Positions 1,867 to 29,960 of a DNA stretch of 42,660 nt are shown piece by piece. Below the pieces are notes generated by a model. It was not told the DNA's origin. It searched no databases and was given only the letters and a program-made list of their open reading frames with translations. Every line of letters begins with the position of its first letter. Within the stretch, counting starts at the first letter, position 1. Origin of the DNA: a virus; IMG/VR virus record IMGVR_UViG_3300012930_000017, positions 1 to 42,660 of that record; one strand, given 5' to 3'. The position numbers and the translations under genes were made by a program.

Positions 1867-3825
1867 GTGGCCATCACGGTCGACCGGTACTCAACGCGGT
1901 CGGACAACAGCACCACCTCCGCGTTCGCCACCAACCCGGTGGCCGGCGGCAAGGTGCTCGTGGGGATCGCCTCGTTCTGGAGCGGTGGCGTCCCGGCGCT
2001 GGCCTCGATCACCGACAACGGCGGCAACACTTACGTCCTCGACGCGAGCTTCTTGAATTCGTTCGGTACCGGCAAGCAATTCCTGTACAGGGCCGACAAC
2101 ATCGCCCTGCCCGGCGCCGGTCAGCTCACGATCACGCTGAGTTGGACCAACGTGAGCCTCTACGAATGGGGCGCGGTAGCGCTCGCCGGCGCGGCGACCG
2201 GCGCGGCGCAGAGCACCAACACCGCCGAGAACTCCAGCGTCACCTCGTCCTCCGTGGCGGCGGGCACGGGCGCTGGGACGGGCAGCTACTACTTCGCGAT
2301 CCACAACGACAACGCGACGACGCCGGAGACGGAGACCACCACCGGCGTCTTCACCCAGCGATTCAGCCTCGGCACTGCCGGGAACATCGCGTTCCAGATC
2401 TCCGACTTCATCGGCTCCGGCAACCAGACGGCGACGTTCGCCTGGACCGGCGGGAGCGCAACGGCTCGCGAGCTGATCGCGGTCTACTCGGCAGCCCCGG
2501 CCGCAGCTGCCGGCGGACTCTGGCCTTCTCGCCCGCTCGGTCGCGGCCCCTTCCTCATGGTTGGGCGATCCGCGCCGGTCTGGGCGTGGCCGGCTGGTGG
2601 CCCGATCGTCAACGTCGCCGTCGCGAGCGACGCCCTGGGCGCTCCGACGGATGCGGTCACCCGCTCTGCCCAGGCGGCCGCCCGCTCGAGCACGGATTCC
2701 CCCGCGGCGCCCACCGATGTCGCCACCAGGGCAGCCCAGGCCATCCACCGCACCGCAGCGGACACGCTCGGCGCTCTCTCGGATACGGCCAGCCGGGCGC
2801 TCCAGTCTGCGGCGCGGACCGCCACCGATACCCTGGCCGCCGTGTCCGAGGTCGCGACGCGAGCCCTCCAGTCGGCCGGGCGCACGACCTCGGACACGCT
2901 CGCGGCTCCGAGCGATGCAGTCACTAGGGGCGCGCAGGGCCCCTCGCGCTCCGCCACCGACAGCCCAGCCGGGCCGACGGATGCTGCGACGCGCTCGACG
3001 CAGGCGCCGACCCGTACCTCGAGCGACAGCCTGGCCAGCATCTCCGATGTCGCGACGCGAGCTGGGCAGGCCCTGGTTCGAAGCGCCAGCGACGCCCTCG
3101 CCGCCCTGACCGACCTCGTCACCCGGGCCGCGCAGGCATCGACACGAACGTCCTCTGACTCGCCGCCGGTGCCGTCCGACACGGCCTCGCGCTCGACGCA
3201 GACGCCCTTGCGCACCGGCGCCGACGCGCTGGCCGGGGTCACCGACAGCGCCACGAGAGCGCTCCAGGCGTTCACGCGCACGGCGACCGAGACCATCGTT
3301 GGTCTGGGCGACCAGGCGTTCAAGGCGGGGCAGCACGTCGTGGTATCCGCGGCCGACACCCTGGCGGCCCTGACGGATCTCGCGACGAGGGCGCAACAGA
3401 CGTTCACGCGGGCGGGTTCCGACGGACTCGCCGCGCCGGCCGACGCCGCGTCCCGCGCGGCCCAGTCGCAGAGCCGTTCGGCGTCCGACTCGCCAGGGGC
3501 GCTGGCTGACGCGGCGGCCAAGGTACAGGCGGCCTCCCGCTCCGCCGCCGACGCGCTGGGCACCCTCGCCGAGAGCGCCAGCCGGGTCGTCGAGCAACAC
3601 CGGGTGGCGACTGACTCTCTAGCGGGAGCGGTTGATTCGGCGATGCGGTCACCGATGGCCGCGGCGCGCGGCACAGCGGACGCTCTAGCGTCGCTGATCG
3701 ACGCTGCCATCGCGCGGGGCGGAGGGCCGTCGGGCGTGCCGGTCAGGGGGCCTACGCGGCTGCTGGGAGCCCTCGCGAACCGGCTACGCGGGCTCGGCGG
3801 ATCGAACCGGATGGGAGGTGGGTGA
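1867..3825 (+). CDS. Repeat-rich virion protein: beta-rich head plus 22-residue helical repeats, 652 aa
   Basis: GTG start at 1867. Residues 1-220 are beta-rich (GGKVLVGIASFWSGG, ITDNGGNTYVLD), like phage minor structural or adhesin domains. A short hydrophobic Pro/Trp-rich link (PVWAWPAGG) follows. Residues about 254-616 are sixteen tandem units of 22 residues (two have 21), with consensus close to S/T-D-x-L-A-A-x-T-D-A-A-T-R-A-A-Q-x-x-x-R-T-x. The period suits a long helix or coiled rod. The C-terminus is basic and Gly-rich. The stop overlaps the GTG of the next gene. A fibre shaft or periplasm-spanning rod is plausible; an enzymatic role is unlikely. Confidence 0.65.
   Translation: MAITVDRYSTRSDNSTTSAFATNPVAGGKVLVGIASFWSGGVPALASITDNGGNTYVLDASFLNSFGTGKQFLYRADNIALPGAGQLTITLSWTNVSLYEWGAVALAGAATGAAQSTNTAENSSVTSSSVAAGTGAGTGSYYFAIHNDNATTPETETTTGVFTQRFSLGTAGNIAFQISDFIGSGNQTATFAWTGGSATARELIAVYSAAPAAAAGGLWPSRPLGRGPFLMVGRSAPVWAWPAGGPIVNVAVASDALGAPTDAVTRSAQAAARSSTDSPAAPTDVATRAAQAIHRTAADTLGALSDTASRALQSAARTATDTLAAVSEVATRALQSAGRTTSDTLAAPSDAVTRGAQGPSRSATDSPAGPTDAATRSTQAPTRTSSDSLASISDVATRAGQALVRSASDALAALTDLVTRAAQASTRTSSDSPPVPSDTASRSTQTPLRTGADALAGVTDSATRALQAFTRTATETIVGLGDQAFKAGQHVVVSAADTLAALTDLATRAQQTFTRAGSDGLAAPADAASRAAQSQSRSASDSPGALADAAAKVQAASRSAADALGTLAESASRVVEQHRVATDSLAGAVDSAMRSPMAAARGTADALASLIDAAIARGGGPSGVPVRGPTRLLGALANRLRGLGGSNRMGGG
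2626..3714 (+). repeat. Tandem 66-bp coding repeats (16 x 22 residues)
   Basis: The repeat is visible at protein level: each unit begins S/T/A-D and has D or E at position 9, R at 13 and Q at 16, for example ADTLGALSDTASRALQ and TDTLAAVSEVATRALQ. DNA copies have diverged strongly, so this is an old or selected protein repeat and not a recent DNA duplication. The Asp and Arg positions recur about every 4-11 residues, consistent with an amphipathic helix. Two late units are 21 residues long. Confidence 0.8.
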
Positions 3826-4196: not shown

Positions 4197-4739
4197 ATGG
4201 CTCGCTGCTCGGCTCGACGAACGAACGGCACTCCCTGCTCGGCCTCGGCAGTCCGTGGGGCCACCGTATGTGTGGCACATGGAGGAGCTGCCTCTCAGGT
4301 CCGGGAGTCGGCCGCTCGTCGCCTGGCGCTGATCGCCGTCCAGCGCGAGTTGGCCACGATTGAGCCGGACCCCATCGACCCGGTCGACGCCATGCTCCAC
4401 CAGCTCGGCTTGGCCGCCGCCTGGGAGCGGTACCTGCGCGGCGAGGTGGCCGGACTCGCGACTCTCGACGATCAGGGCATCGGCGGCTCCCGGAAGGTGG
4501 CCGTCACCGTGGAGCTCTGGAATGACGAGCGCGACCGACTGACCAAGCTCGCCAAGCTCGCCCTCGACGCCGGGATCGCCGAGCGCCAGGTGCAACTCGC
4601 CGAGCGCCAGGGCGCTCTGATCGCGGATCTGATCCGCAGGGTGCTGGATGATCCGGACCTCGACCTCACGGCCTCGCAGCGGTCAGCCGCAGGTCAGGTC
4701 GCGGCCCGGCACCTCCGAGAACTTGGCCAGGCGTCCTGA
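4197..4739 (+). CDS. terS: Terminase small subunit-like protein with Cys/His finger, 180 aa
   Basis: ATG at 4197. Residues 1-35 carry a Cys/His pattern (MARCSARRTNGTPCSASAV, then VCVAHGG) that recurs at the N-terminus of a family of small terminase subunits with the HGG-x-x-x-x-V-R signature. The rest is helical and charged, with a coiled segment (AGIAERQVQLAERQGALI), as expected for an oligomeric DNA-recognition subunit. It lies directly before the large terminase and overlaps its likely start by 17 bases. The subunit would recognise phage DNA and load the large subunit. A general DNA-binding protein is the alternative. Confidence 0.7.
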   Translation: MARCSARRTNGTPCSASAVRGATVCVAHGGAASQVRESAARRLALIAVQRELATIEPDPIDPVDAMLHQLGLAAAWERYLRGEVAGLATLDDQGIGGSRKVAVTVELWNDERDRLTKLAKLALDAGIAERQVQLAERQGALIADLIRRVLDDPDLDLTASQRSAAGQVAARHLRELGQAS

Positions 4740-7005
4740 TCCGTTCGGCGCTGCGGCCGACATGCTGGACGGCGACGAGGCCCGCTGGAGACCGCTCCCG
4801 CATCAGGTTCCGCCTGACCTCGACTCCGGGGACTACGATTTCTTCGTCCTGGCCGGGGGGAGAGGAACGGGGAAGACGGATGCGGGGGCCCACGCCTTCG
4901 ACCTGTACATGCAGGCCCACCCGGGCGCCCGCGGTCGGATCATCGCTCCGACGCTCGGAGACGCTCGCGAGGCGTGCGTGGTCGGACCCTCCGGCATCCA
5001 GGCCCACAACGCCGAGGTCCACTGGAACTCGAACGAGGGCGCCCTCTACTGGCCCAACGGCAGCCGGGCGAAGATCTTCGGCGCCCACCACCCCGAGGAT
5101 GTCGAGCGGCTCAGGGCGGGAGGCAACAGCGCCCTGGATTGGTACGAGGAGTTGGCCGCCTGGGCGAAGCTGGACGAGGCGTGGAACCAGGCCCGCTTCG
5201 GACTCCGCCTCGGGTCGCGGCCCCGTACCATCGTCACCACCACCCCCAAGACGCGCCCGCGCTTCCTGTGGCTGATCGGCCAGCCCCAGGACGGGATGCC
5301 GGAGTGCCCGAAGATCGTCCTGCGGCACGGCACCACCGCCGACAACCCTCACCTCTCGGAGCATGTCCGGCGCGAGCTCTACGCGACCTACGAGGGGACC
5401 CGCCTGGGCGACCAGGAGCTGCGCGGCTTGGTGATCGCGGACCTGGCCGGGGCGCTCTGGAAGCGGGCTCTGCTGGACGATCTGCGCGTGCGTCAGGCCA
5501 ACCTCCCCGAGTTCGTGCGCATCGTGGTAGGCGTGGACCCGTCCGGTGGGGTAGCCGAGACGGGCATCGTGGTGGTCGGCCTCGGAACCGACCACCACGG
5601 CTACGTGCTCGACGACTGCTCAGTGGGCGGTAGCCCGAATGCCTGGGGCGTCGCGGTCGTGGACGCCTACGACAAGTACCAGTGCGACAGGATCGTCGCC
5701 GAGGTCAACCAGGGAGGCGCCATGGTCGCGTCCACCATCGGCACCAGCAGGCCGAACCTGCCCATCCGGACGGTGCGCGCCGCGAAGGGGAAGATCGCCC
5801 GCGCGGAGCCGGTCTCCGCTCTCTACGACCAGGCGCGAGTGCATCACGCCGGGACCTTCCCCCGTCTGGAGGACCAGATGACGAGCTGGGAGGCGGCCAG
5901 CGGGCAGGAGTCTCCGGACCGCCTCGATGCCTGCTTCATTGCTGGAACCCAGATCCTCACCGATAGCGGGCCTGTGTCGATAGAGAGTGTTGAGGTCGAT
6001 GATCTCGTCTGGACGAGAGCAGGCTGGAGGCGGGTCGAGTGGTCTGGCATGACCGATCCAGCAGCCGACGTCATCCGGGTGTGCACGACGACGGGAGAAT
6101 TCACGGCTACCCCCAATCAACGAATGTGGGTCGCGGGCAGAGGGTGGGTCACAGTGGATGCCCTCGTGTCTGGTGATAGACTGGAGGCGTGCAACGCGCT
6201 CTCCGAGAGGAGGTCGTCTACAGGGGTCAGCGGTTCGTCCGATACCCCCTGGCCGCCTCCCGATCGTCCCGTGTCTACTACACCGCCCGGGACGATAGCG
6301 GGAATCGCCTGGCTGGATTCCAGCAACTCCATGTCGAGGTTTGGAGAGACGCCCACGGCAGACAGCCTGTTCCCGCTGGTTGCCTTGTCCACCATCGCGA
6401 CTTCGACCCGCTCAATAACGACTCCTCGAATCTGGCGGCGATCACTTACCGCGAGCACTCCAAACTGCATGAAGGGCAGACAGACCGGGATTCGCCTGAG
6501 TGGTTGGAGCATTTGGCCAGGATTCGTCCCATGGCGGCCGAGTGGCATGGGAGCGAGGCGGGCCTGGAGTGGCATAGCGAGCACGGCAGGCGATCATGGG
6601 CTGGCCGGCAGTCGGAGGAGCGCAGATGCGAGGCTTGCGGCACCGCCTTCCAAGGGTGGTTCGGCGAACGTAGCCGGTTCTGCTCACGGGCCTGCATGCG
6701 ACGAGCGGCCGACCGTGCGCACCGCTACCAGCGGCAGGTCGCTTGTCCGGCCTGCGGAACACCGTTTTGGCAATGCCTCTACCGGGCCAGGCCCACGGCT
6801 TGCTCTCGCAAATGTGCTTGGGTGCTACGCCGTGCGCGGCAGGCAGCCGGTATATGACCTGACCGTCGCCGGTCAACACGAGTTCTACGCGAACGGCTAC
6901 CTCGCTCACAACTGCGTTTGGGCCATAACCGACCTGATGCTCGGCGAGGCCGAGTGGGCGCCGCAGGGCCTCGTGGTGGCCGGCGGCGGGAGGAACTACG
7001 GATGA
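4723..7005 (+). CDS. terL: Terminase large subunit interrupted by an intein (760 aa precursor, ~433 aa mature)
   Basis: ATPase and nuclease that packages DNA into the prohead. Walker A is GGRGTGKT (Lys about residue 51). Walker B-like ALDWYEELAAW is near residues 137-147, and a coupling-type TTTP follows at IVTTTPKTRP. The nuclease domain begins at GVDPSGG (Asp about 272). The conserved end motif is split: SPDRLDA lies before residue 404 and VWAITDLMLG after the intein, rejoining as DRLDA-CVWA, which matches the usual DALVWA of the family. Upstream of 4723 the frame reads as a shadow of the small subunit; starts at ATG 4648 or ATG 4762 are possible, and no Shine-Dalgarno is evident. The +1 extein residue is Cys. 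Confidence 0.9.
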   Translation: MARRPDPFGAAADMLDGDEARWRPLPHQVPPDLDSGDYDFFVLAGGRGTGKTDAGAHAFDLYMQAHPGARGRIIAPTLGDAREACVVGPSGIQAHNAEVHWNSNEGALYWPNGSRAKIFGAHHPEDVERLRAGGNSALDWYEELAAWAKLDEAWNQARFGLRLGSRPRTIVTTTPKTRPRFLWLIGQPQDGMPECPKIVLRHGTTADNPHLSEHVRRELYATYEGTRLGDQELRGLVIADLAGALWKRALLDDLRVRQANLPEFVRIVVGVDPSGGVAETGIVVVGLGTDHHGYVLDDCSVGGSPNAWGVAVVDAYDKYQCDRIVAEVNQGGAMVASTIGTSRPNLPIRTVRAAKGKIARAEPVSALYDQARVHHAGTFPRLEDQMTSWEAASGQESPDRLDACFIAGTQILTDSGPVSIESVEVDDLVWTRAGWRRVEWSGMTDPAADVIRVCTTTGEFTATPNQRMWVAGRGWVTVDALVSGDRLEACNALSERRSSTGVSGSSDTPWPPPDRPVSTTPPGTIAGIAWLDSSNSMSRFGETPTADSLFPLVALSTIATSTRSITTPRIWRRSLTASTPNCMKGRQTGIRLSGWSIWPGFVPWRPSGMGARRAWSGIASTAGDHGLAGSRRSADARLAAPPSKGGSANVAGSAHGPACDERPTVRTATSGRSLVRPAEHRFGNASTGPGPRLALANVLGCYAVRGRQPVYDLTVAGQHEFYANGYLAHNCVWAITDLMLGEAEWAPQGLVVAGGGRNYG
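6177..6182 (+). promoter_or_regulatory. -10-like TAGACT box for the nested HNH gene
   Basis: TAGACT fits TANNNT and is preceded by TGA, giving an extended -10 look (TG-n-TAGACT). It lies 6 bases before the GTG at 6189, the spacing expected for a leaderless transcript. A GGAGG overlaps the spacer at 6183-6187, too close to the GTG for a normal Shine-Dalgarno. No convincing -35 is visible. The role is inferred. Confidence 0.45.
6189..6857 (+). CDS. HNH homing endonuclease nested out of frame inside intein 1, 222 aa
   Basis: GTG start at 6189, in a frame different from the terminase-intein frame. An N-terminal DNA-recognition segment (about 1-60) is followed by a clear HNH core: LVHHRDFDPLNNDSSNL (His 68-69, Asn 76-77) and a later ITYREHSKLH. 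The C-terminus carries two Cys4-type zinc fingers (CEACGTAF ... FCSRAC and CPACGTPF ... CSRKC). It probably makes the double-strand break or nick that spreads the intein or its surroundings. The TGA at 6855-6857 lies inside the sequence encoding intein block F, so the gene end and the splicing domain overlap. It would be made as a separate protein, not excised with the intein. Confidence 0.88.
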   Translation: MQRALREEVVYRGQRFVRYPLAASRSSRVYYTARDDSGNRLAGFQQLHVEVWRDAHGRQPVPAGCLVHHRDFDPLNNDSSNLAAITYREHSKLHEGQTDRDSPEWLEHLARIRPMAAEWHGSEAGLEWHSEHGRRSWAGRQSEERRCEACGTAFQGWFGERSRFCSRACMRRAADRAHRYQRQVACPACGTPFWQCLYRARPTACSRKCAWVLRRARQAAGI

Positions 7006-25493: not shown

Positions 25494-28400
25494 GAAGAGC
25501 TCGCTCTGAAGTTCACGGCCTACGACTTCATCTCGGGGGTCGCTCAGAAGGCTGGCGAAGCTCTGGGGCTACTGAAGTCGAGGGCACTGGACAGCGGTTC
25601 GAGCCTGGAGACGATGGGCCAGAAGGCGAAGTTGGCCTCCGTCAACGCCGAGGCTCTCGGGCTCAGGGCGAAGCTGGCGGCCGACAACGCGGTGATCCTG
25701 AAGGAGAAGGCAGAGGCTGCCGGCGAGGGCGCCGGCATGCTGGCGACCAAAGCGGAGCTCGCAGCCAAGAACGCTGAGTCGCTGGGCTTGCAGGCCAAGC
25801 TGGCCGGAGCCGCAGCCGCCGAGATGGCCACCAAGGCAGAGGCGTCGGCGGCCGGGTGGCTGACGCTCGGGAACGCGGCCAAGGTCGTCGGGGCGGCGTG
25901 GATCGGGGTTCAGGTGGCGCTCGTGGCTGCGGTGGCGGCGACGGTCCCGATGGCCGCCGCGTTCCAGAGCGCCACCGAGATGGTCCACACCCAGGCGGGC
26001 ATGGCCCAGTCGGATATCGGGAAGGTCCGCCAGGGACTGCTCGACATGGCGCCGGCCGTCGGCATCGGGCCGACCGAGCTGGCCAACGGCTTCTATCATG
26101 TGGCGAGCGCCGTCACCAACCTGCCGCCAGCGCTGCGGAACGTCAACGACGAGCTGAAGATCTTCGGCGAGGCGGCGAAGCTATCGAAGATCGGCAATGC
26201 CGGCCTGGAGCAGTCGACGCAGGCCGTGATCGGCGTCATGGCCGCCTACGGGTCCGCGAACTACACCGCCACCCAGGCCGCAGCCCAACTCAACGCGATC
26301 GTCGGCGCGGGCGACATGCGCATGGAGAAGCTGACCGCCGCCATGGCGACCGGCATCCTCCCGGCCGCCAAGACCGCTGGCATCTCCCTCCTCGACGTCG
26401 GCGCGGCCCTGGCGACTCTCACGGACAACGTCACGCCGGCGGACGAGGCCGCGACCCGACTCCGCATGACGTTCTCGATGTTGTCCGCCCCGACGGGTGC
26501 CGCCCAGAAGGCACTCGCCGCGATCGGCATCAACTCCACCCAGCTCGGCTACGACATGCGCAAGCCGGACGGGCTGCTCGTCGCGCTGACCGATCTGAAG
26601 TCGCACCTGGGTCACATCGACGCCTCCGCGCTCAAGGGTGGGATCGGCGAGGTGAAGACGGAGCTGGACCACTTCGGGTTCAGCGCCGACCAGATCGACA
26701 AGATGCTCAGCAAGCTCGGCCCGGATGCGGTGGAGCAGTCGGTGATCCTGGCCCGCGCCTTCGGAGGCGGCCGCTCAAGCGCCGCGGTCATGACCCTGCT
26801 CACCGAGTTCGACTCGTTCAAGGACAAGTACGGGGCCATCACGGCGGGAGCCAACAATTGGGGGGACGCCTGGGCCCAGACCACAGCCACTGCCGAGTTC
26901 CAGTGGTCGCGTTTCACGTCCCAGGTGCAGCGCGGCGCCATCATCATCGGAGCCACCCTCCTGCCGATCGTCACCAGCGGCCTCCAGGGACTCACCGATG
27001 GGCTCGGCAAAGTGGCTCCGGTGGTCGCCCGGGTCTGGAACGCCCTGCCGGCTCCGCTCCAGGCGACGATCTCGCCAGTCGTCGCCGCGGTGAGCCACGT
27101 CGACCAGATCCAGAGCGGCTTGGGCCAGCTCCAGCGCACGGCCACCCCCCTCGTGCAGGCCATCGGCGCCGGCATGGCCGCGCAGCCGTTGTCGCCCACG
27201 AGAGGCGCTGATCTGGCGGGCGGCCCGAGAAGCCTCACGGCGGGCCAGCAGGCAACGGTCGCCACGCAGACCGCCCTGCAGAAGGGTGGCCTGGACGCGG
27301 CAGGCGCCTCCATCGGCCAGTTCATCGCTGGTGCCCTGACCGCCCTGCACCAAGCCTGGGGCTGGGCCGTCGGCGTCGTGAAGCCGCTGCTGGACGAGGT
27401 CCGGGTCTGGTGGCACCAGCACGGCCAGGAAGTGATGAAGGTCGTCAATGGCGCGCTGAACGAGCTGCGGCGGACCTTCAGCCAGGCGATGGGCGGGATC
27501 ATGGCCGTCGTCGGACCGGCGCTGGTCGCAATCCGGTCGTGGTGGAAGGGGCACGGCGACGAGGTGCTCATGGTCCTCCGGGCGACCTGGAACACGATCG
27601 TGGAGGTCATCTCGATCTTCCTGCCGATCATCCTCCACCTGATAGGCGGCGCCTTCCAGTTGATCAAGGATATCGTGAGGCTGGCCTGGGATCTGGTCAT
27701 CGGCGTACTGCGAATCGCCTTCGACATCGTGGGCGGCATCTTCACCGTCGCGCTGGACATCATCACCGGCCACTGGGACCGGGCCTGGACGGACCTGCTG
27801 GCGATCTTCGGCAACGTCTGGAACGACATCAAGAGCCTGCTCGGCAACGTCCTGGGTGACCTCGGCGGCCTGCTCGGCGACTTCGTCGGCATCGTGGCCC
27901 AGCTGGGAGGCGACATCATGGGCGCCCTCGCCCGCTCCTTCAAGGACGGCGCCAACGACGTGATCAACGTCCTCAACGGGCTCATCGGCGGCCTCAACCA
28001 GGTACTCGGCAACTTCGGGATTCACATCCCACTCGTTCCGTTGATCGGCGCCAGCGGTGGCGGCGGCGCCGGCCTGGGCATGCGAGTGGGCAGCAGCCAC
28101 CAGGGCGGGATGGAGGTCGGCGGCATCTTCGACCGCGCGACCGCGATCGTGGGCGAGGGCAGCTTGGCGCATCCCGAGTGGGTGATCCCGACCGACCCGC
28201 GCCACCGCGGCAACGCCATGGGCCTGCTGAACAGCCTCCTGCCCGCGCTCGGCCTGGCCAGCGGCGGCTGCCTGAGCTGCGGCGCCCGCCACCAGATGGG
28301 CGCGGGCGCGCCCGGCACCACCCCGGGGAGTTGGGGAGGGCAGTGCGTGACCTTCGCCCAGAACATCCTCGGAACTTACTGGCCGGTATCGGCTGCCAAC

Positions 28401-29960
28401 CAGTTGACTGCATACGTCAACTCGCAGATGGCAGTACCCGGCGAGGCGGCCGTGTTCACTGGCGGGCCCTTCGGTCACGTGGCCGTGGTCACTGGCCCAG
28501 GTGACGGGTTCTGTATAGCTGGCGGTACGCCAATCCTGACCGATCGCGGCGAGGTGCCGATCGAGTTGGTCGAGCCCGGCGATCGAGTGCGGACCCGTGG
28601 CGGATGGAACCGCGTCCTATGGTCCGGCATGACTCGCAGGGACGCCGAAGTCGTCGCGATCTCAGCCGGCGGTCGAGAGTTGGTCGTTACCCCGGACCAC
28701 CACGTCTGGATGAGCCGGTCGCTGGCGGTCCCGGAAGGCAGCGTAGTTGCATTGGTCGCTGCAGTAGATGCGGCGAGCAGTGGGGCGGGCGATCAGAACT
28801 CCGCACCGCACGCAGTGCGTCCGGACGATGCATCCGTGCTCGGCTCGCCACTGCTCGCGCTTCCGCTCGTTGATGCAGATGCGGCACCGACGCCAACCGC
28901 TGGCGGTGTAGGCGGACTCCGGTCCATATGGATGGCCCGCAGGACAGGCGTCCTTGTCGCGGTTGGCGAGAGGGATTATGGCGGCTTGGCCGATGACGCC
29001 GTGCGCGGCCTCGGATCTCCGGATTCCGAGATACGGCAGCAGCAGATCGGCTACTCGCCTAGCCTCTGGCGTGCTGCGAGTTCTCCAGCGCCACTGGGTC
29101 TTGTTGCCTGGGACCTGACCGACACGTTCTACGACCGATCCGCATCCGACGATGGCCGCGAACCGTCGCACGATGTCCTCATCGGTCATAGACAGGGTGG
29201 CGCGCGGGATGCGATGGCGCATCGTCTTCCCGCTGTAAAAGCAACCCTCTCCCTCGAAGAGCCCAGCAGCCCATGCGATGTCGATCTCGGTCGCCACGGC
29301 TCTGATTTTACCCGGGGACAGTGGGTTCCTGCCATTCAAATCGGGTCTGGCGATACGGTCTGGCTGACCAGTCCCAATATGGACATAGTTCCAGTCACGG
29401 TAACGAGCGTCCGGCCGCGACCGCGCGTGGATACTTACGACCTCACGGTCGAGGGGGACCACGAGTTCTTTGCCGACCGCATTCTGGTCCACAACTCGTT
29501 CCCGGTCATCGACTCCAACTGGGTTGGCCCCGAGACCATCGGGACTCACGTCATGTCGCGCAGCATGTACGGCTTCGCTGGCTTCATCAACCTGGGCCGG
29601 CCGCCGAACCCTGCTGTGCTGGCCGCCTCCCACGCCAGCGGCTTCAGCCTCAAGGGCCTGGTCGACTCTACCCTCTCTCCGCTGGAGAAGACCCTGGCGA
29701 CCGGCTGGATCGGCCAGTTGGAGAAGGGCGTCATGGACCTGCTCGCCACCGGGGTCAAGGGCGCGCTGCCATTCGACCAGGGTGGCGTCCTGCCGCCGGG
29801 CCTGACCCTGGCCTACAACGGCACCGGTCGCGGCGAGACGGTGCTCGGCCCCGGCCAGCAGCAGCAGGGACAGACCATCAACGTCTACGTCACCCAGCCC
29901 AACGCCAGCGCTCACGAGATCGCTTGCGAGATGGCCTGGGCGCTGAAGACCACCAACTGA
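25491..29960 (+). CDS. Tape measure protein with CHAP domain split by an intein (1489 aa precursor)
   Basis: Sets tail length and is ejected on infection. Residues 1-130 are Ala-rich helical repeats (AKLASVNAEALGLRAKLAA). The tail core domain (about 140-450) has AAFQSATEMVHTQAGMAQ and GMRKPD-type helices. Hydrophobic helices span about 680-810 (EVISIFLPIILHLIGGAF). A CHAP peptidoglycan hydrolase domain begins near 945: GGQCVTFAQ (Cys 952) and FGHVAVVTG (His 996). An intein (residues 1008-1335) interrupts it, and VIDSNWVG follows. A Gly-rich LPFDQGGVLPPGLTL segment lies near the end. Start is ATC at 25491; an ATG at 25611 (MGQKAKL) would lose 40 plainly coding residues. Confidence 0.85.
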   Translation: MEELALKFTAYDFISGVAQKAGEALGLLKSRALDSGSSLETMGQKAKLASVNAEALGLRAKLAADNAVILKEKAEAAGEGAGMLATKAELAAKNAESLGLQAKLAGAAAAEMATKAEASAAGWLTLGNAAKVVGAAWIGVQVALVAAVAATVPMAAAFQSATEMVHTQAGMAQSDIGKVRQGLLDMAPAVGIGPTELANGFYHVASAVTNLPPALRNVNDELKIFGEAAKLSKIGNAGLEQSTQAVIGVMAAYGSANYTATQAAAQLNAIVGAGDMRMEKLTAAMATGILPAAKTAGISLLDVGAALATLTDNVTPADEAATRLRMTFSMLSAPTGAAQKALAAIGINSTQLGYDMRKPDGLLVALTDLKSHLGHIDASALKGGIGEVKTELDHFGFSADQIDKMLSKLGPDAVEQSVILARAFGGGRSSAAVMTLLTEFDSFKDKYGAITAGANNWGDAWAQTTATAEFQWSRFTSQVQRGAIIIGATLLPIVTSGLQGLTDGLGKVAPVVARVWNALPAPLQATISPVVAAVSHVDQIQSGLGQLQRTATPLVQAIGAGMAAQPLSPTRGADLAGGPRSLTAGQQATVATQTALQKGGLDAAGASIGQFIAGALTALHQAWGWAVGVVKPLLDEVRVWWHQHGQEVMKVVNGALNELRRTFSQAMGGIMAVVGPALVAIRSWWKGHGDEVLMVLRATWNTIVEVISIFLPIILHLIGGAFQLIKDIVRLAWDLVIGVLRIAFDIVGGIFTVALDIITGHWDRAWTDLLAIFGNVWNDIKSLLGNVLGDLGGLLGDFVGIVAQLGGDIMGALARSFKDGANDVINVLNGLIGGLNQVLGNFGIHIPLVPLIGASGGGGAGLGMRVGSSHQGGMEVGGIFDRATAIVGEGSLAHPEWVIPTDPRHRGNAMGLLNSLLPALGLASGGCLSCGARHQMGAGAPGTTPGSWGGQCVTFAQNILGTYWPVSAANQLTAYVNSQMAVPGEAAVFTGGPFGHVAVVTGPGDGFCIAGGTPILTDRGEVPIELVEPGDRVRTRGGWNRVLWSGMTRRDAEVVAISAGGRELVVTPDHHVWMSRSLAVPEGSVVALVAAVDAASSGAGDQNSAPHAVRPDDASVLGSPLLALPLVDADAAPTPTAGGVGGLRSIWMARRTGVLVAVGERDYGGLADDAVRGLGSPDSEIRQQQIGYSPSLWRAASSPAPLGLVAWDLTDTFYDRSASDDGREPSHDVLIGHRQGGARDAMAHRLPAVKATLSLEEPSSPCDVDLGRHGSDFTRGQWVPAIQIGSGDTVWLTSPNMDIVPVTVTSVRPRPRVDTYDLTVEGDHEFFADRILVHNSFPVIDSNWVGPETIGTHVMSRSMYGFAGFINLGRPPNPAVLAASHASGFSLKGLVDSTLSPLEKTLATGWIGQLEKGVMDLLATGVKGALPFDQGGVLPPGLTLAYNGTGRGETVLGPGQQQQGQTINVYVTQPNASAHEIACEMAWALKTTN
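28662..29297 (-). CDS. LAGLIDADG homing endonuclease nested antisense inside intein 2, 211 aa
   Basis: GTG start at 29297 on the minus strand, stop TGA at 28664-28662. Residues 8-18 are AWAAGLFEGEG, a clear single LAGLIDADG motif, followed by PRATLSMTDEDIVRRFAAIV, GCGSVVERVGQ and ADLLLPYLGIRRSEA, as in homodimeric members. The C-terminus has CPAGHPYGPES, WRRCRICINERKRE and a Cys4 finger (CVRCGVLI ... YCSDQC). Its last codons lie antisense to the intein block B, so the enzyme and an essential splicing motif are encoded by the same bases. The enzyme would target the uninterrupted CHAP/tape-measure site or a nearby one. Confidence 0.88.
   Translation of the reverse strand: MATEIDIAWAAGLFEGEGCFYSGKTMRHRIPRATLSMTDEDIVRRFAAIVGCGSVVERVGQVPGNKTQWRWRTRSTPEARRVADLLLPYLGIRRSEAAHGVIGQAAIIPLANRDKDACPAGHPYGPESAYTASGWRRCRICINERKREQWRAEHGCIVRTHCVRCGVLIARPTARRIYCSDQCNYAAFRDRQRPAHPDVVVRGNDQLSTAG
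29305..29310 (-). promoter_or_regulatory. -10-like TAAAAT box for the antisense LAGLIDADG gene
   Basis: TAAAAT on the minus strand, 7 bases before GTG 29297, with no Shine-Dalgarno between. The box sits exactly at the edge where intein-like sequence resumes on the plus strand. TTGAAT lies further upstream but about 23 bases away, too far for a standard -35. Leaderless expression independent of the tail operon is inferred. Confidence 0.5.

Follow-up and report, generated by a model that had tools for sequence, protein, structure and literature searches.

Homing inteins are usually described as single polypeptides that carry two activities. In the canonical arrangement (PMC8966425, PMC6801210), the two parts of the Hint fold flank an endonuclease that is in frame with them, and loss of the endonuclease leaves a mini-intein. 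A different organization has been reported for the ShiLan insertion (Arsenault et al., 2025; PMC11855218), where an HNH endonuclease gene with zinc fingers and a GTG start lies in the third frame of a phage DNA methylase gene, whose own frame stays open. The authors call its homing active; they identified no splicing domain in the insert, which is presumed to be retained in the methylase protein. In fractured genes (Dassa et al., 2009), as relayed in PMC10882715 and PMC10448857, two split-intein halves are arranged around an endonuclease gene. PMC11855218 also cites a preprint for the frequent occurrence of overlapping frames (Gosselin et al., 2025; 10.1101/2025.01.02.630785), and the actinobacteriophage inteins of "non-canonical architecture" mentioned in that connection could possibly represent the same phenomenon as the one described here.

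The locus studied here lies in the gene for the large terminase subunit (TerL) on a 42,660-nucleotide stretch of viral DNA (IMG/VR record IMGVR_UViG_3300012930_000017), which we call the window. Its features are as follows.

4648 to 5931, plus strand: N-extein of TerL, matching Pfam Terminase_6N (2.6e-15) and Terminase_6C (3.4e-09).
5932 to 6912, plus strand: intein of 327 residues in a contiguous open frame, from Cys1 to the final His-Asn, matching Pfam Hint_2 (2e-07).
5932 to 6198, plus strand: N-terminal splicing segment of the intein, residues 1-89, blocks A and B, with Gln replacing the block-B His.
6177 to 6182, plus strand: TAGACT, a hexamer resembling a -10 box, 6 nt ahead of the HNH start codon.
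6189 to 6857, plus strand: nested HNH endonuclease ORF of 222 residues with a GTG start, matching HNH_3 (7.8e-10) and phrog_15471 (2.3e-29).
6211 to 6783, plus strand: the overlap as read in the intein frame, residues 94-284, a disordered and unconserved linker (pLDDT mostly below 45, dN/dS about 1.1).
6793 to 6912, plus strand: C-terminal splicing segment of the intein, residues 288-327, blocks F and G, the 5' part being common to the HNH C-terminus.
6913 to 7005, plus strand: C-extein of TerL, beginning at Cys+1 (CVWAITDLML); the restored motif matches the intein-less TerL of phage mu1/6.

Like the ShiLan insertion, the window thus carries a zinc-finger HNH gene that begins with GTG and is read out of frame, in the same phase, within an open gene; unlike it, the HNH gene is surrounded by a Hint domain. 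The endonuclease occupies the same place between the parts of the Hint fold as in canonical inteins, but it is out of frame and outside the intein polypeptide, with a phase of -1/+2 in the window and in all contiguous inteins of the same family. The likeness to fractured genes, i.e., two intein halves around a separately encoded endonuclease with the host gene present as two ORFs, is seen in three relatives (L023, L079 and L092), whereas the window shares with 122 other loci an uninterrupted intein ORF that the endonuclease gene overlaps in a different frame. The original prediction, that the endonuclease is a separate gene not fused to the splicing protein, stands, with two qualifications: an out-of-frame HNH as such had already been published for ShiLan, and other phages have the same layout. 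The pairing of an unbroken Hint intein with an HNH gene in another frame appears to be new, with the split relatives linking ShiLan-type insertions to fractured genes; our literature search found no paper on this combination, although the preprint 10.1101/2025.01.02.630785 may report something similar.

Read from the sequence, TerL is one ORF (4648-7005), starting either at ATG 4648, which overlaps the upstream gene, or at ATG 4762, and interrupted by the contiguous intein. The N-extein also matches the PHROG terminase large subunit family (8.6e-26), and TerL is 44.8% identical to its homologue from Streptomyces phage mu1/6. Excision of the intein would join SPDRLDA to CVWAITDLM, and the alignment of this motif with the uninterrupted mu1/6 protein (SPDRMDALVWAATHLM) is gapless. 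The intein frame, in which blocks A, F and G and the terminal His-Asn had been recognized beforehand, is open from Cys 5932 to Asn 6912, exactly at the coordinates given then. The nucleophile at position 1 is the Cys at 5932, a residue found in 122 of the 124 distinct same-phase inteins assembled below, and the intein ends as VYDLTVAGQHEFYANGYLAHN-C, with His-Asn followed by Cys. The label "B-like" was well chosen for the remaining block: at 6109-6126 the window has TPNQ, with the catalytic His changed to Gln, and it is one of only three loci in which the TxxH motif is not kept (121/124 keep it). Because of this substitution, splicing of the window copy may be slow or impaired.

Beyond Hint_2, the intein frame gave a weak match to Pfam Intein_splicing. 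Custom profiles of the intein ends scored 128 bits for the N-block and 60 bits for the C-block, the window itself being among the training sequences. The best Foldseek match of the intein model was the gp41-1 intein (2.0e-05), and by model and profile together the best matches with solved structures were the gp41-1 and NrdJ-1 inteins. These data also bear on whether the insertion could instead be a group I intron with an HNH ORF in it. HNH ORFs are frequent in phage group I introns (a point discussed in PMC11855218). Since no Rfam match to a group I ribozyme core was found within the window, and the intein frame is open, with Hint homology and a predicted Hint fold, we rejected the intron and give it practically no chance of being correct.

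The nested gene reads one base ahead of the intein codons, from GTG 6189 to the TGA at 6855-6857, which falls within the codons of block F; length and coordinates are precisely those first proposed. Separate searches with the two frames had been recommended, a lack of any match in the nested frame being named as evidence against the reading. Both frames returned clear families, Hint_2 for the intein and HNH_3 (PF13392) and phrog_15471 for the nested frame, and 27 of the 27 family members tested match HNH_3. Residues H68, H69, N76, N77, N81, H90 and H94 are invariant in the HNH family and all present in the window. The two Cys4 fingers that had been noticed beforehand are conserved as well, C147/C150/C165/C169 being invariant and C186/C189/C205/C209 nearly so. 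The nearest Foldseek match of the HNH model was I-HmuI, at an E of 0.21 that is too weak to be informative by itself.

How might this gene be expressed? Across the 124 loci, the HNH frame starts at a median of 87 codons into the intein, directly past block B, with an ATG, GTG or TTG at this position in 123/124, and equally in 123/124 the stop falls within the intein. No Shine-Dalgarno sequence for the HNH gene is conserved across the loci, and in the window a GGAGG lies only 1 nt from the GTG. The TAGACT hexamer is no more than suggestive of an internal promoter that would give a leaderless HNH mRNA. In the window's own GC-rich clade, a TATAAT-like box at this distance of 6 nt from the HNH start is striking, and hexamers with at least 5/6 matches occur in 7 loci versus 2.1 expected from synonymous nulls, a significant excess. 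With AT-richness controlled the promoter signal is weak, TATAAT just narrowly outscoring shuffled AT-rich hexamers, and a leaderless internal transcript therefore remains only a lead.

Is the double-open frame a product of chance? The HNH insertion might have wrecked the intein, with GC-rich DNA merely giving the appearance of an open frame, and the original prediction had cautioned that alternative frames often stay open in such DNA. This caution was justified: synonymous shuffling of the HNH codons gives an expectation of just 2.0 intein-frame stops in the window, with P=0.054 for none, so that the window by itself is borderline evidence. We therefore turned to relatives. In an HNH-led search, an HNH alignment was run against IMG/VR and GTDB, and the loci were scored with profiles of both intein ends. 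The HNH phase was identical in 79/79 loci with both intein blocks, 78 of them without a stop in the intein frame, and the C-block was in frame with the N-block. An independent intein-led search found the same layout in 78/79 loci, the remaining one being a mini-intein. Pooling the searches gave 156 loci, which represent 125 distinct HNH-carrying inteins after clustering at 80% nucleotide identity. In 123 of these 125, at locus GC contents from 0.27 to 0.71, the HNH gene is in the identical phase and the intein frame contains no stop; the two exceptions are L023, with 12 stops, and L092, whose halves are in different frames.

Against synonymous codon shuffles, the 124 same-phase inteins were expected to contain 239.3 intein-frame stops and contain 12, all of them in L023; 123/124 loci are free of stops, compared to about 20 expected by chance. 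By contrast, ten free-standing HNH homologues from the first set show no avoidance (55 stops versus 50.3 expected), and neither does the third frame in that set (1258 versus 1330.6). With stop-free relatives down to 27% GC, and a deletion in one relative (L149, described below) that preserves the intein frame, a chance opening is refuted at the level of the family, and we regard it as extremely unlikely. A second possibility was a recent frameshift or assembly error masking an ordinary in-frame endonuclease, in which two compensating indels would have shifted the HNH segment alone. Such indels would indeed leave the C-block in the frame of the N-block, as observed, but they do not account for 124 distinct inteins, from many phages, that share one phase and mostly have a start codon just past block B and a stop inside the intein. 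In-frame homologues had been put forward as the finding that would tell against a separate gene, and the comparison returned none: in 0 of 125 distinct loci was the HNH in frame with the intein. This comparative set refutes the error, to which we assign next to no probability.

The identical phase and the avoidance of stops across relatives thus indicate that the nested layout is a real, widespread design, present in more than 100 other phage genes, and not a sequencing slip. It occurs in TerL of the named phages TJE1 (Tetrasphaera), Highwayman (Acinetobacter, 39% GC) and MD07 (Rhodobacteraceae), and L075 is likewise a true nested case. Two further nested-HNH inteins lie elsewhere in genes that look like terminases from their flanking motifs, as judged by eye: at IFTDDI|C, a Walker-B-like site (L069, 2313-3260), and at VDWGFA|C, in the first nuclease motif (L077, 2753-3649). 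In the nested class, the two activities correspond to two overlapping genes and have been kept so in more than 120 distinct inteins. This affects intein annotation, since in its own frame the middle of such an intein resembles junk, and the nuclease is concealed by TerL annotations.

A test of codon-substitution constraint in both frames had also been suggested. Between the window and L009, dN/dS came to 0.29 for the HNH frame, to 1.15 when these bases were read as intein codons and to 0.22 for the intein N-block; between L009 and L007, the corresponding values were 0.19, 1.67 and 0.07. For the window and L009 the values ranged over 0.25-0.29 in the HNH frame and 1.12-1.15 in the intein frame of the overlap, or about 0.25 against about 1.1. 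Substitutions concentrate at codon position 3 of the intein outside the overlap and switch to codon position 3 of the HNH frame inside it. The HNH gene is therefore under ordinary protein selection, while the overlapped intein frame is selected essentially only for the absence of stops. The predicted structures agree with this division: AlphaFold modelled intein residues 1-93 and about 285-327 with confidence (pLDDT ~95) and residues 94-284 mostly below 45, and it modelled the HNH frame confidently throughout (mean pLDDT 94.6). For studies of overlapping genes, the family provides a large natural data set, one of the two frames being under selection solely against stop codons.

In principle, a conventional fused endonuclease-intein could be made from the same bases if ribosomes underwent programmed frameshifts, first into the HNH frame and then back out of it, and the constant phase and location of the frame switch are what such frameshifting would predict. 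It would, however, need two shifts of opposite sign, and classical -1 heptamers occur in just 13/124 switch regions and are not conserved. The HNH frame, moreover, has its own start codon and stop, and the intein frame is open, which frameshifting does not require. Frameshifting is accordingly unlikely, and we would put it only slightly above a chance opening, at a very low probability.

Within TerL, the insertion sites cluster in the nuclease motif NHxxDAxRY, where three adjacent registers account for 29, 27 and 11 of 74 loci. Identity between elements often exceeds that between their TerL hosts (70-74% versus 42% for L054/L057, 51-55% versus 21% for L037/L073), although the pairs were picked on HNH similarity, which inflates the contrast of HNH over TerL. 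On these sequence comparisons, the element appears to move horizontally between TerL genes. The HNH may also move between unrelated inteins, as is suggested by L158, whose HNH is 56% identical to those of L056 and L137 while the intein N-blocks are 29-39% and the TerL proteins 22-24% identical; across loci, the correlation of HNH and splicing-domain distances is significant but weak (r=0.19). Could the HNH work for the terminase, perhaps in packaging, a role that phage HNH proteins can have, instead of in homing? Nearly all copies are in TerL, and free-standing HNH homologues without an intein are found near or beside terminase genes in L004 and L011. Most related TerL proteins, on the other hand, have no HNH, the HNH is deleted in L149, and it moves relative to TerL, so that we consider a role in the service of the terminase improbable. 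In L068 (2500-3800), TerL is intact, an HNH gene comes after it, and the TerL C-terminus then recurs as a second copy (DALRYACMFVERQSEGVFV, then DAMRYACMWAESSSKGVYV); it looks as if the insertion had duplicated the end of the TerL gene.

We consider it highly probable that the element is a homing intein and that its endonuclease has a separate gene overlapping the intein. In this model, a mobile intein interrupts the nuclease motif of the large terminase, with the HNH gene nested in the -1 (+2) frame at the usual spot between the halves of the Hint fold. Judging from the sequence and the structure model, the TerL-frame precursor would fold its two ordered intein ends around a disordered loop of ~190 residues and splice the intein out. 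Separate initiation at the internal GTG would yield a free HNH protein of 222 residues. As its family and the horizontal transfer suggest, this protein would cut TerL alleles lacking the intein, and repair would copy the whole element. Accumulation of stops in the intein frame could be survived as a split intein with the HNH between its halves, and loss of the HNH by an in-frame deletion would leave a mini-intein.

One element type is in fact seen contiguous, split and deleted to a mini-intein. L149 has a mini-intein of 144 residues at a TerL site identical to that of the window. Read in the HNH frame, it joins ...ESVVSNGITF to PVPATCSSSCGAYLRARNKAA..., which are both ends of the L009 HNH; the deletion amounts to 543 nt, with the intein frame kept and both HNH remnants out of frame. 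In the split versions, the N-half ends in stop codons and is followed by the HNH ORF and then the C-half. The three TerL genes split in this way are located as follows.

L023, 2726 to 3760.
L079, 2400 to 3730.
L092, 300 to 1552.

The C-half of L023 has its own ATG at 3509, preceded by AGGAAGGA, a good ribosome-binding site. From their sequences, these three loci are candidate new natural split inteins. The endonuclease in this family is of the HNH_3 type, whereas that of the fractured genes is reportedly of a different family.

More tentatively, and with somewhat less than even confidence, we propose that nested-HNH inteins form a large separate class of homing inteins and an evolutionary source of natural split inteins. 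An independent endonuclease gene would let the intein frame break inside, and a C-half gaining its own start, as in L023, would complete the transition to a fractured gene. A concrete path would thereby lead from contiguous inteins to the split forms employed in biotechnology, with L023 as a testable intermediate and L149 as a natural deletion.

The window contains a second intein, at 28512-29495 on the plus strand within a tape-measure/CHAP ORF (25614-29960), which matches Hint_2 at 6.2e-09. On the opposite strand, an ORF at 28662-29297 encodes a LAGLIDADG-like protein with a treble-clef end. The openness of this antisense frame is uninformative, the genome being GC-rich, and no intein was found in four weak relatives. 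The protein matches phrog_5046 (1.5e-23) and, by tblastn, the LittleE gp14 region (3e-14), and it may represent an antisense-encoded endonuclease within an intein.
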